Shown here: piece by piece, positions 9,198 to 15,133 of the stretch
How the letters are laid out: each line of letters starts with the position of its first letter
How positions within the stretch are numbered: position 1 is the stretch's first letter
Origin: a virus
Length of the DNA stretch: 64,000 nt
Strand: one strand, 5' to 3'
Virus record (IMG/VR): IMGVR_UViG_3300017963_000201
Coordinates: 62,001-126,000 of that record
Translations under genes and position numbers: made by a program
Notes under the pieces: generated by a model
Told to the model about the DNA's origin: nothing
The model's database searches: none
Seen by the model: the letters and a program-made list of their open reading frames with translations, nothing else

Positions 9198-10385
9198 TTG
9201 GATTTCTCTATAGCAGATCACACTAGTTATTTAGTGGTTGCAGGATCGCATGCCTATAAGACACACCACCAAGATAGCGACTATGATGTTAGAGGTTGGG
9301 GAATACCCCCACTAAAATACCAATTTGCTTTTGACAAACATTTTGATCAATACGATGCAAAGCATACCTATCGAAATTACCCTTTTAGGGTAGATCTAAA
9401 TTCGTATATTAAATCTCATAACCTTAGGCCACTTCCAGAAGACGAAATGATAGATCAAACTGTTTACTCAATTTCTAAATTTTTCAAGCTGGCATCAGAT
9501 TGCAACCCTAATGTGATTGAGTTATTATTTGTTGACGATACAGATATATTAATCTGTGATCCCTATGCCACAGAAGTTAAAAAACACCGAGACTTATTTT
9601 TGTCTGCCCGCGCCAAATTTAGCTATTTAGGGTATGCAATCAGTCAACTGAAGCGTATTAAAACTCATCGGAGGTGGTTACTTAATCCACCTAAAGAAAA
9701 ACCCACTAGGACTAAATACGAGCTTCCAGAGCAATCTTTAATACCACCAGAGCAACGAGGTGCTGCAGAAGCCTTGGTAAAAGCAAAAGTACGGGAATGG
9801 ACCTTACAAGATGCCGATCTTTTTTCAAAGACTGAATTAAATATGGTCCATGTAAATCACCTATCAGAGTTTGTAGGGTATCTAATAGACCGTAAAACGG
9901 ATATACAAGAAATGCTTACAGCAGCTCGCATAGCTGCAATGCACTACTACGGACTGTCAAAAAATATGATCGAAGTTTTACAAGCTGAAAAATCATATAA
10001 GGCGGCATTAATAGAATGGAACCAATACAAGAATTGGAAAGAAACCAGAAATCCTTATAGAGCTGGATTAGAAAGGGACTATGGCTATGATTTAAAACAC
10101 GCCATGCACCTTGTTAGACTAATTTTTCAAGGCGAAGAATTACTCACTAGAGGAAAAATTACAGTAAGGTGTAATCACATTCCAGAGATCGAAGAAGTAA
10201 AAGAAGGTAAGTGGAGCTACGAAAAATTAATTTATTTTGTAGAGACTAAAGAAAAAGAATTTAATATTTTGTATAATGACAAGAAGTACGTCGTACCAAA
10301 GAAGCCGAATATAAAGGCTCTGAGTAAGCTAAATACGGATCTATTAAAGAGGTATTACCATGAGAAAATTTTTCTACGACACTGA
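9198..10385 (+). CDS. predicted nucleotidyltransferase (Pol beta superfamily)
   Basis: 395 aa, TTG start with GGAGGG 4 nt upstream and 1 nt after the previous stop. The N-terminal nucleotidyltransferase motif VVAGSHAYKTHHQDSDYDVRG (GS followed by DxD) is clear, matching the COG3541-type predicted nucleotidyltransferases common in large phages. The C-terminal half is helical and could bind RNA or DNA. Substrate unknown; because the next gene is an exoribonuclease and an RNA locus follows, RNA end modification is a reasonable guess. Confidence 0.75.
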   Translation: MDFSIADHTSYLVVAGSHAYKTHHQDSDYDVRGWGIPPLKYQFAFDKHFDQYDAKHTYRNYPFRVDLNSYIKSHNLRPLPEDEMIDQTVYSISKFFKLASDCNPNVIELLFVDDTDILICDPYATEVKKHRDLFLSARAKFSYLGYAISQLKRIKTHRRWLLNPPKEKPTRTKYELPEQSLIPPEQRGAAEALVKAKVREWTLQDADLFSKTELNMVHVNHLSEFVGYLIDRKTDIQEMLTAARIAAMHYYGLSKNMIEVLQAEKSYKAALIEWNQYKNWKETRNPYRAGLERDYGYDLKHAMHLVRLIFQGEELLTRGKITVRCNHIPEIEEVKEGKWSYEKLIYFVETKEKEFNILYNDKKYVVPKKPNIKALSKLNTDLLKRYYHEKIFLRH

Positions 10386-13372: not shown

Positions 13373-13463
13373 TGCGGGGTACTGTGTCAAGCCAATTCTT
13401 AATGTTTAGGAAAGTGCCTAGAACCTAAATCTTTTTCCTTGAAAAAATTAATCTTTTTATTGC

Positions 13464-13491
13464 TTGACGTACCCAAAAACTTTTGTATTAT
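13464..13491 (+). promoter_or_regulatory. strong sigma-70 promoter of the RNA locus
   Basis: TTGACG (13464-13469), 16 bp, TATTAT (13486-13491), with predicted start near 13498. It stands in the gap after the 110 aa gene and just before the structured RNAs. TATTATAC also occurs before several other plus-strand genes (7435, 25190, 55612). Confidence 0.75.
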
Positions 13492-13543
13492 ACACTAAGC
13501 AGCACAAAGAATGATAAGGGATCTTTGACAATCGGTTGTGGTT

Positions 13544-13600
13544 TTCCCTCTGGGATCTTTAACTCTTTTCGCTTGGACGTTTTAGTCATGCCAGAGGGAA
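13544..13600 (+). ncRNA. hairpin RNA with 10-bp perfect stem
   Basis: TTCCCTCTGG (13544-13553) pairs perfectly with CCAGAGGGAA (13591-13600), leaving a 37-nt loop. First structured element after the promoter at 13464. Lacks the Y RNA loop motif. Function unknown. Confidence 0.45.
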
Positions 13601-13657
13601 TTAATGTGCCCTTGTTCCGGTAACGCTAGGCACGGGACCCTAACAAGGGTAGCCTTT

Positions 13658-13794
13658 GGGCAAATGCTGTATGGCACTCCATAGCTTATATAAGTTCGAA
13701 TCTTATTATACCCTTCGGGGTATATAGCCTAACTGGTAAGGCAGCTTCTTATAAAGAAGCCAAGCGAAAATGTGCCACACAATACTTGTTGCCC
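13658..13794 (+). ncRNA. Y RNA-like RNA A with permuted tRNA-like body (UUCG-capped acceptor)
   Basis: Outer stem GGGCAA/TTGCCC (13658-13663/13789-13794), followed on the 5' side by ATGCTGT and preceded on the 3' side by ACTTG, as in the other Y-like RNAs here. Inside are a hairpin (13666-13685), a T-arm (ATAAG, loop TTCGAAT, CTTAT, 13690-13706), then TATACCC-TTCG-GGGTATA (13707-13724), an acceptor stem closed by a UUCG tetraloop. A D-arm follows (GCCT, AACTGGTA, AGGC) and an anticodon-type hairpin (GCTTC, TTATAAA, GAAGC). So tRNA positions 44-72 precede 1-43. It cannot be a normal tRNA because it has no free acceptor end. Confidence 0.7.
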
Positions 13795-13810
13795 TTTATT
13801 AGTCAGATTT

Positions 13811-13882
13811 CTTGCTGAATGCAGTTTATGATTACATTTTTGTGTAAAAAAATCAGATCACAAACTAATCCTTGTCAGCAAG
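13811..13882 (+). ncRNA. Y RNA-like RNA B (minimal, no tRNA-like body)
   Basis: Outer stem CTTGCTGA/TCAGCAAG (13811-13818/13875-13882, 8 bp perfect), then ATGCAGT on the 5' strand and CTTG on the 3' strand, an inner stem GATTA/TAATC (13830-13834/13866-13870), and a terminal stem TTTGTG/CACAAA (13839-13844/13859-13864) with an A-rich loop. The GAATGCAGT....GATTACATT string is nearly identical to that in RNA D at 14988-15008. Confidence 0.7.
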
Positions 13883-13892
13883 ATTAATCCTT

Positions 13893-14123
13893 GGGGATCT
13901 AAATGCGCGTCAGGATTACATTGCACTTAACTGTTAATTAAGAGGTTGTTGGTTCGAGTCCAACCTGGCCCATCTCCGCTAGTGGGGGTAGGAATCCATG
14001 TCATAGGTTTACAGTCCCTCCCGTATGCTTGTGGCTTCCGCTCTTTTCTTACCCTCACTTTTATGGGCCAGTAGCTCAATTGGTAGAGATAATATGGTCT
14101 TGGCAAATACTTGTTAGATTCCC
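13893..14123 (+). ncRNA. Y RNA-like RNA C: permuted tRNA-Asn(GTT)-like
   Basis: Outer stem GGGGATCT/AGATTCCC (13893-13900/14116-14123, one G-U), with the loop motif AATGCGCGT and GATTACATTG after it, and ACTTG on the 3' side. The tRNA 3' half comes first: anticodon arm CTTAA-CTGTTAA-TTAAG (13926-13942, anticodon GTT), variable AGGTT, T-arm (13948-13964), acceptor CTGGCCC (13965-13971) and A. After 92 nt with its own 10-bp stem (13981-13990/14050-14059) comes the 5' half: GGGCCAG (14065-14071), TA, D-arm. The break falls at positions 26/27. The D stem has one G-A mismatch. A true permuted tRNA-Asn cannot be excluded. Confidence 0.7.
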
Positions 14124-14135
14124 TTTTTATTATAA

Positions 14136-14210
14136 AATAACTGCATAAGAACGTACACTAACTTAATAAAAATTTTCGATGCACGCCTGCTCTACTCTTA
14201 TGCAGTTATT
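14136..14210 (+). ncRNA. long hairpin 1 (14-bp perfect stem, 47-nt loop)
   Basis: 14136-14149 pairs perfectly with 14197-14210; the loop is 47 nt. Followed by T6 (14212-14217), so it may also end transcription. Its geometry is identical to the hairpin at 14289-14363, although the sequences differ. Confidence 0.5.
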
Positions 14211-14218
14211 ATTTTTTG

Positions 14219-14271
14219 GGGCATTCAGTTTTGTTTAAATATTTGGGGCAATAAAAATATTTCCTGAGTGC
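14219..14271 (+). ncRNA. two-stem hairpin between the two long hairpins
   Basis: GGCATTCAG (14219-14227) pairs with CTGAGTGCC (14263-14271), one G-U, enclosing an AAATATTT/AAATATTT inner stem. Function unknown. Confidence 0.4.
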
Positions 14272-14288
14272 CTCTCTTAATTGTACTA

Positions 14289-14363
14289 AGAAATCGACGT
14301 TGACCATCCTTACCCCGCATCCCTACCTCAGCTTTCTAGACTTCCCTGGCAACGTCGATTTCT
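14289..14363 (+). ncRNA. long hairpin 2 (14-bp perfect stem, 47-nt loop)
   Basis: AGAAATCGACGTTG (14289-14302) pairs perfectly with 14350-14363, leaving a 47-nt C-rich loop (several CCCT/CCATCC strings, few G). Possibly an antisense or protein-binding RNA. Followed by AATTTTGG, a weak terminator at best. Confidence 0.5.
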
Positions 14364-14441
14364 AATTTTGGAGCGTCCGAAGCGTGACTGGATCATTTAA
14401 CATCCAAAAAATCAGCACTAGTTTTTACTTTGGAGTCTAGT

Positions 14442-14540
14442 ATGCCTTCTGTGGATAACGTCTTTAATTTGATTATGGCTTTATTTGCTTCCTGGATTAT
14501 AGTAGTATTTATAGCATCGCACTTTGGCAAGGGGCACTAG
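14442..14540 (+). CDS. very small single-TM protein
   Basis: 32 aa, ATG with GGAG 9 nt upstream. Nearly the whole protein is one membrane segment (LIMALFASWIIVVFIAS) ending in a basic tail. The stop lies 10 nt inside tRNA-Arg. Too short for a family assignment; supported only by the SD and composition. Confidence 0.4.
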   Translation: MPSVDNVFNLIMALFASWIIVVFIASHFGKGH

Positions 14541-14603
14541 CCTAACGGATAAGGCATCGGCCTTCTAAGCCGACCAATCGGGGTTCGATTCCTCGGTGTC
14601 CCG
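14531..14603 (+). tRNA. tRNA-Arg(TCT)
   Basis: Complete cloverleaf in normal order: acceptor GGGGCAC/GTGTCCC (one G-U), D-arm GCCT-AACGGATA-AGGC, anticodon arm TCGGC-CTTCTAA-GCCGA, variable CCAAT, T-arm CGGGG-TTCGATT-CCTCG, discriminator G. CCA not encoded. Decodes AGA, a codon common in these AT-rich genes. Confidence 0.92.
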
Positions 14604-14614
14604 TAGGAGATGCT

Positions 14615-14800
14615 ATGAATGATAAGGAAATCGTTGCGGAGCTAAGAAGAATTGGATCTGATGTTTTGAATAAACTTTGGAAAGCTCACCATGATTATCA
14701 TTTCAAAACCATAGATGCCCAAGAGTTTATCAAAATATTTAAACAAGCTGTAGCTAAGTTTAATGAAGCAAATACTATCATAGAAAGAGAAAGACATTAG
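14615..14800 (+). CDS. small helical protein between tRNA genes
   Basis: 61 aa, SD TAGGAG at good spacing, starts 12 nt after tRNA-Arg and its TAG ends exactly before tRNA-Leu. Charged amphipathic helices (KIFKQAVAKFNEANTIIERE). No family recognised. Confidence 0.6.
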   Translation: MNDKEIVAELRRIGSDVLNKLWKAHHDYHFKTIDAQEFIKIFKQAVAKFNEANTIIERERH

Positions 14801-14883
14801 GCTGCTGTGACGGAATGGTATACGTATCAGACTTAAAATCTGATGCCCAGATGGGATTGAGGGTTCGAGTCCCCCCAGCAGCA
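14801..14883 (+). tRNA. tRNA-Leu(TAA)
   Basis: Type II tRNA: acceptor GCTGCTG/CAGCAGC, anticodon arm TCAGA-CTTAAAA-TCTGA (anticodon TAA, decodes UUA), long variable arm, T-loop TTCGAGT, discriminator A. CCA not encoded. Confidence 0.92.
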
Positions 14884-14886
14884 TAC

Positions 14887-14970
14887 GGATCGGTGCCCGA
14901 GCTGGTCAAAGGGGACGGGCTGTAAACCCGTTGTCATGTGGCTACGATGGTTCGAATCCATCCCGATCCA
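14887..14970 (+). tRNA. tRNA-Tyr(GTA)
   Basis: Type II tRNA: acceptor GGATCGG/CCGATCC, anticodon arm ACGGG-CTGTAAA-CCCGT (anticodon GTA), long variable arm, T-arm GATGG-TTCGAAT-CCATC, discriminator A. Three nt after tRNA-Leu. Confidence 0.92.
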
Positions 14971-14980
14971 TATATAAGTC

Positions 14981-15118
14981 TTACTCCGAATGCAGTAAGA
15001 GATTACATTGCTCTTCGAAAGCCGTGGTTGCGGGTTCAAGTCCCGCTCCCCCGATTTCGGGGGATAGCTCAATTGGTAGAGCACGTAAAATAATCTCTTG
15101 CAACCCTTGTCGGAGTAA
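14981..15118 (+). ncRNA. Y RNA-like RNA D: permuted tRNA-Arg(TCG)-like body on a Ro-binding-type stem
   Basis: Outer stem TTACTCCGA/TCGGAGTAA (14981-14989/15110-15118, 9 bp perfect), ATGCAGTA loop strand, inner stem AGAGATTA/TAATCTCT (14998-15005/15091-15098), CCCTTG on the 3' side. Between them the tRNA 3' half comes first: weak anticodon arm with loop CTTCGAA (15013-15019), variable TGGTT, T-arm GCGGG-TTCAAGT-CCCGC (15030-15046), acceptor TCCCCCG. A 4-nt ATTT loop leads to CGGGGGA (15058-15064), TA, D-arm GCTC-AATTGGTA-GAGC, A. All 7 acceptor pairs are Watson-Crick. The UCCGA-AUGCAGU string and 3' CUUG resemble the conserved Ro-binding stem of animal Y RNAs (from memory). It lies 0.9 kb before the Ro60 gene. 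Confidence 0.82.
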
Positions 15119-15133
15119 ATTTTTGGAGGTTTT

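Follow-up and report, generated by a model that had tools for sequence, protein, structure and literature searches.

A predicted phage Y RNA of the YrlA class with a permuted tRNA head and a complete, split anticodon arm

Results

The locus

The window analysed here is the whole stretch of 64,000 nucleotides of viral DNA from IMG/VR record IMGVR_UViG_3300017963_000201. RNA D, the subject of this study, lies on its + strand, where the initial annotation had placed it (Table 1). It starts 10 nt 3' of a tRNA gene; three normal tRNAs, Arg(tct), Leu(taa) and Tyr(gta), are encoded just upstream, and ARAGORN finds no others in the 145-kb record. A gene for a Ro60/Rsr ring protein follows 0.9 kb 3' of RNA D. 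Besides the matches listed in Table 1, this protein matches NF041674 (RNA-bind_Rsr, E = 9e-30, below the NF041674 cut-off), and it scores 44% to the TROVE protein of Myxococcus phage Mx1. It is likely the protein partner of RNA D. In Mx1, the closest protein relative, which has a Ro60 gene, no adjacent Y RNA was detected by Rfam at E 0.001 or by our covariance model R1, and the R1 matches in Mx1 fall in an ordinary tRNA array.

Four further Y-like RNAs (A, B, C and E) surround the Ro60 gene. The break of RNA A lies in the variable region, its anticodon arm being located 3' of the D-arm. RNA C has an acceptor loop of about 93 nt; in its unjoined form RF00005 matches only the 3' half (13907-13972), and ARAGORN calls no tRNA. 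An open reading frame at 15134-15718 (+) starts 16 nt 3' of RNA D; it has no Pfam match and a weak match to phrog_6660, and its start, MNTHIEYERKFLIG, resembles that of a CYTH/triphosphate tunnel protein. A TTG-start open reading frame at 9198-10385 (+) encodes an RNA-repair nucleotidyltransferase of the RlaP family (PF10127). Reviews list RlaP as one of the means by which phages respond to defences that cut tRNAs (PMC7824862).

Table 1. Positions of RNA D, its parts and the neighbouring features in the window
Feature	Position	Strand	Evidence
RNA D, Y RNA with permuted tRNA head	14981..15118	+	YrlA RF02553 60.7 bits, E 7.1e-13; fold z -5.49; R1 86 bits (not independent, RNA D being among the 38 training sequences of R1)
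Outer basal stem, 9 bp	14981-14989/15110-15118	+	fold, YrlA alignment
Inner stem, 11 bp including one G-U; 5' strand GUAAGAGAUUA	14995-15005/15091-15101	+	fold
Anticodon-arm 3' part: nt 29-31 GCU, loop CUUCGAA (32-38, anticodon UCG), nt 39-43 AGCCG	15010..15024	+	joined halves = tRNA-Arg(tcg); comparative support
T-arm GCGGG-UUCAAGU-CCCGC	15030..15046	+	fold, YrlA alignment
Acceptor stem, perfect 7 bp (15047-15053/15058-15064), AUUU loop	15047..15064	+	fold, YrlA alignment
U8-A9, D-arm (15067-15082), A26, C27-G28	15065..15085	+	break after 15085; comparative support
Ro60/Rsr ring protein, vWA_Ro60 and weak TROVE	16000..17553	+	PF25045 E 3.7e-23; PF05731 E 1.6e-4; phrog_850 E 6e-40
RNA A, second Y RNA; joined = Tyr(AUA)	13658..13794	+	YrlA 40.7 bits, E 4.3e-7
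RNA B, short Y-like stem, same GATTACATT junction motif, without tRNA head	13810..13883	+	
RNA C, Y-like; halves 13924-13971 and 14065-14088 join = tRNA-Asn(GUU)	13893..14123	+	ARAGORN on joined halves
RNA E, Y-like, 3' of the Ro60 gene, anticodon loop opened (usual YrlA type)	18398..18513	+	R1 47 bits, E 3e-11 at 18405-18483; fold z -1.97

Fold of RNA D

The initial annotation had described a tRNA cloverleaf in permuted order, mounted on a Ro-binding-like stem. This description is borne out by the fold, by the Rfam YrlA match and by ARAGORN on the joined halves. Folding, which had been proposed as a check, yields a stable structure: the region 14971-15128 (158 nt) has an MFE of -57.4 kcal/mol (z = -5.49), and 0 of 200 shuffled sequences were equally stable. 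Two basal stems are followed by a complete tRNA head in permuted order, connected to the inner stem by the linkers CAUU and UAAAA. The outer stem has the 9 bp that had been claimed, but the inner stem, previously given as 8 bp, comprises 11 bp including one G-U pair. The perfect 7-bp acceptor stem with its four-nucleotide ATTT loop was found as predicted. The Ro-binding motif GAAUGC stands 3' of the 5' strand of the outer stem, and CCCUUG precedes its 3' strand.

When the two halves are joined, ARAGORN reads one 73-nt gene, tRNA-Arg(tcg), with a perfect 5-bp anticodon stem (CGGCU/AGCCG) around the loop CUUCGAA and A15-U48 as the tertiary pair. The break had been placed between tRNA positions 26 and 27. 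This position was dropped in favour of 28/29, because positions 27-28, directly 3' of the D-arm, pair with positions 42-43 (C27-G28 at 15084-15085 with C42-G43 at 15023-15024). This 2-bp helix is absent from the single-sequence MFE structure of RNA D, and its support is comparative, coming from the pairing of own versus swapped halves (see below). Near relatives of the anticodon arm occur at loci L073 and L196, with an identical 5-bp stem and identical loop flanks, and GUU in place of UCG.

Class of RNA D

The Rfam model YrlA (RF02553) aligns over 14983-15119 at all 114 model positions (60.7 bits, E = 7.1e-13). The score remains below the curated gathering score of 69, since the model lacks an anticodon hairpin and treats that of RNA D as a 16-nt insertion. 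The basal stem displays the conserved GAAUGC ... CUUGUC motif, the head has the permuted order T-arm, acceptor and D-arm with a capped acceptor, and a Ro60/Rsr gene is close. The earlier suggestion of a YrlA-type Y RNA is thus upheld by the model match, by the positions of the GAAUGC ... CUUGUCG motif and by the adjacent Ro60/Rsr gene. The suggested likeness of the stem to animal Y RNAs has to be amended: the motif has the bacterial YrlA form, and the animal Y RNA family gave no Rfam match at the gathering score in the window, nor in 13380-15200 with E values of up to 5 admitted. From these sequence features, we regard RNA D with high confidence as a phage-encoded YrlA-class Y RNA that carries a complete, split anticodon arm.

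Location 10 nt 3' of a tRNA gene would also be expected of debris from a tRNA array. We give next to no credence to such an origin, or to a chance fold, as both are contradicted by the fold (z -5.5), by the YrlA match (E 7e-13) and by the recurrence of such RNAs with covariation.

Recurrence in phages and bacteria

Peptide patterns for the Ro60 protein yielded no match in IMG/VR and were substituted by DNA patterns, in which a T-arm is followed by a D-arm in reversed order. These were applied to IMG/VR and GTDB genomes with no selection on the loop. Among the matches listed there are 83 viral permuted cores; a 7-nt loop on three distal pairs was found in 31 of them, as compared with 1-4 for any other loop length. 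The split full anticodon arm, including the two proximal pairs, is present in 29/83 viral and 33/93 bacterial cores among the matches listed. In the 29 viral full arms among these matches, position 33 is U in 28, position 37 a purine in all 29 and position 38 A in 27. The mimicry had been called unusually complete. This is correct when the YrlA consensus is taken as the yardstick, but RNAs of this type occur commonly, amounting to about one third of the permuted cores in the viral and in the bacterial sample.

Of 30 viral RNAs among the matches listed, 28 pair when their own halves are combined, against a mean of 9.4 and a maximum of 18 in 500 trials with swapped halves; in the bacterial RNAs among these matches the figures are 24/24 and 9.0. 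The Levitt tertiary pair 15-48 bridges the permutation; among the matches listed, 100 of 104 viral RNAs have G-C or A-U there (Fisher p = 1.7e-20; this and the p-values below treat related phages as independent). Both the loop-unselected half-swap test and the 15-48 test are free of selection. A covariation table of 38 sequences is not independent proof, because these sequences were chosen partly for pairing. Wider patterns, biased to complete arms, gave at least 80 RNAs. The type represented by RNA D is a widespread variant within YrlA-class Y RNAs.

A TROVE or vWA_Ro60 match is found in 23 of the 50 viral records with such RNAs among the matches listed, many of these records being fragments. 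Caulobacter phage CcrColossus has a permuted Asn(GUU) RNA at L584:5011-5088, just upstream of its TROVE gene gp139. In the same phage, two more Y-like repeats (L584:5140-5440) have D-arms of class II (Ser/Leu-like) and match R1 weakly; their plan is similar to that of RNA A. Vibrio phage BONAISHI encodes a permuted Ser(GCU) RNA with one stem mismatch, and Microbacterium phage Big4 a permuted Thr(UGU) RNA that overlaps a gene annotated as tRNA-Ser, each with a Ro60 gene close by. The annotated tRNA-Ser(cga) of Big4 coincides with a Y RNA of 78 bits by R1 (L585:3980-4081, 100198 onward) and is likely a misannotation. Complete arms with a variety of anticodons are likewise present in bacterial YrlA RNAs from many phyla (loci L459 onward). 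Blastn matches in Klebsiella and Aeromonas were rejected as Y RNAs, being judged to be tandem ordinary tRNAs.

Reviews describe YrlA as a mimic of the D, T and acceptor arms (PMC8394870). The observation of complete anticodon arms in Y RNAs may in part already be known, and its priority is uncertain.

Anticodon loop and charging identity

The loops follow the rules of tRNAs. Among the matches listed, permuted RNAs with G36 have G37 in 12 of 13 cases, and those with any other N36 have A37 in 66 of 67, as in tRNAs; RNA D (G36-A37) is the sole exception in the set of 13. Loop nucleotides 32, 33, 37 and 38 carry an isotype signal of z 6.3 in permuted RNAs versus 9.0 in normal tRNAs. Elsewhere in the permuted RNAs this signal is low (acceptor 3.6, N73 2.4, anticodon stem -1.2, T-arm -0.3, against 9-13 in normal tRNAs). 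Position N73 carries G in 157/169 normal viral Asn tRNAs, compared with 2/15 permuted Asn RNAs among the matches listed. At class level, the discriminator and isotype identity are largely randomised relative to normal tRNAs. As the loop keeps its tRNA signal where N73 and the stems do not, the loop seems to be under selection, while charging identity has drifted.

This loss bears on the question of whether RNA D is a genuine permuted tRNA gene, in which the Ro-stem would be excised at the 28/29 break, the halves ligated to a circle, the acceptor loop removed and CCA added, so that the product translates. ARAGORN calls tRNAs on the joined halves of RNA D (Arg(tcg)), RNA C (Asn(gtt)) and RNA A (Tyr(ata)). 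With Arg(tct), Leu(taa) and Tyr(gta) as the only normal tRNAs of the record, the set would be extended by Arg(UCG) and Asn(GUU). The junction is sequence-conserved, and RlaP is encoded nearby. Intervening loops of algal and archaeal permuted tRNAs can be as short as 1-5 nt (PMC3978253), so the short acceptor loop alone is no argument. However, N73 and most of the isotype signal are lost class-wide, CCA is not encoded in RNA D, and the fold (judged without a dedicated program) displays no bulge-helix-bulge at the junction. A normal tRNA with the same anticodon is found in the flank at 7 of 28 loci among the matches listed, which also speaks against this reading. RtcB was not found in this virus record and occurs in 2 of 22 Ro60-bearing records; in the search of the record for a ligase with T4 Rnl1, the control was silent. 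A 643-aa frame displays a weak RNA_ligase-like match below cut-off (G000:C1:40506-40832, +), the sole such match in the record. Taken together, splicing of RNA D into a tRNA is disfavoured, and we consider this origin unlikely. Its extension to the whole class, namely that the Y RNAs of phages and bacteria contain genuine permuted tRNA genes, made into working tRNAs by a Ro60-linked pathway that removes the Y stem and links 28 to 29, appears slightly more doubtful still; if true, maturation of permuted tRNAs would be seen in bacteria for the first time.

The viral anticodons are skewed. Of the 28 unbiased viral arms among the matches listed, 15 carry Lys(UUU), Thr(UGU) or Asn(GUU), which together account for 14.4% of normal viral tRNAs (p = 1e-6); when distinct arms among these matches are counted, the share is 11 of 24 (p = 2e-4, independence assumed). 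The PARIS nuclease AriB mainly targets these three tRNAs (PMC12409363). The anticodon set is compatible with AriB, but the stem sequence is not, and AriB was rejected as the specific target: the AriB stem signature (UC at 39-40) has a frequency of 0.10 in permuted Lys and 0.00 in permuted Asn RNAs versus 0.41 and 0.48 in normal tRNAs. As this signature is lost and the UCG (Arg CGN) of RNA D lies outside the enriched set, we claim no specific nuclease. Chromosomal bacterial Y RNAs with complete arms show another anticodon spectrum than the viral ones, so phage defence cannot explain all of these RNAs.

Discussion

Possible function of RNA D

Based on this dataset, we tentatively propose that RNA D is an uncharged tRNA stand-in tethered to Ro60, perhaps a decoy for enzymes that act on anticodons; this appears to us quite possible, if a little short of probable. 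The phage Ro60/Rsr protein would hold the basal stem. The head folds like an entire tRNA, into which the chain runs and from which it exits at the 28/29 break; this is supported by the comparative data. RNA D would probably be neither charged nor decoding, because its acceptor end is sealed, the charging identity of the class is largely lost and the loop keeps the rules of tRNAs. It may thus expose its anticodon loop to an enzyme that works on this loop, perhaps an anti-phage anticodon nuclease, with the outcome that real tRNAs are spared or that the enzyme is delivered to the Ro60 particle. The RlaP gene nearby favours such a stand-in. Salmonella YrlA has been suggested as a competitive inhibitor of an anticodon nuclease; the SOS anticodon nuclease did not cut Salmonella YrlA, but a competitor need not be cut (PMC7790460).

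A more conventional role deserves serious consideration, although we hold it to be somewhat less plausible. The tRNA-shaped head may merely dock an effector such as PNPase (RYPER), or regulate Ro60, with the anticodon hairpin as a structural stabiliser. Tethering is the known function of bacterial Y RNAs, as in the Ro60-Y RNA-PNPase machine (PMC8394870). Open-loop YrlA RNAs are as frequent as complete ones in the viral and bacterial samples (among the matches listed), and the phage that encodes RNA D also encodes the open-loop RNA E, together with RNA B without any head. Open-loop members being common and present in the same phage, the anticodon arm must be dispensable in some members. On the other hand, a purely structural hairpin would have no need for U33, A38, the N36-N37 rule or the skewed viral anticodon set.

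The N36-N37 rule is also what anticodon-loop modification enzymes read, and YrlA is modified by TruB and DusA (PMC8394870). RNA D could accordingly be a sponge that takes up host proteins which modify or otherwise bind tRNAs, instead of nucleases. This appears very improbable to us, as a sponge alone leaves the Lys/Thr/Asn skew of the viral arms unexplained.

Should these RNAs act as decoys, phages would be using Ro60-Y RNA particles to counter immunity that works by cutting tRNAs. A large subclass of YrlA, in phages and on bacterial chromosomes, holds proper and varied anticodon arms beyond the mimicry of the D, T and acceptor arms. The purpose of the tRNA head of Y RNAs thereby becomes testable, the question being which anticodon-reading protein meets the head.

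Comparison with known systems

RNA D shares with YrlA (RF02553) the basal Ro-binding stem with GAAUGC/CUUGUC, the permuted T-acceptor-D head with a capped acceptor and the adjacent Ro60/Rsr gene. It differs by its full anticodon hairpin, which upon joining gives a 5-bp stem with a proper anticodon, and by a score below the gathering threshold. Animal Y RNAs have the same general plan of a Ro60-binding basal stem and a separate head, but they lack a tRNA head, and their family is unmatched in the window.

In the permuted tRNA genes of Cyanidioschyzon, green algae and Thermofilum, the 3' half likewise comes first, the acceptor link is short and the joined halves form a full cloverleaf. In contrast, the break of RNA D at 28/29 carries a Y RNA stem without bulge-helix-bulge, a Ro60 gene is adjacent, and N73 and identity are not kept in the class.

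Phage tRNAs that blunt anticodon nucleases, such as the T5 tRNAs against PARIS AriB, are phage-encoded tRNA-shaped RNAs as well. Those of the T5 type are ordinary tRNAs that replace the cleaved ones, whereas the RNAs of the RNA D class, which are permuted, have a capped acceptor and a link to Ro60, and they do not keep the AriB stem sequence.
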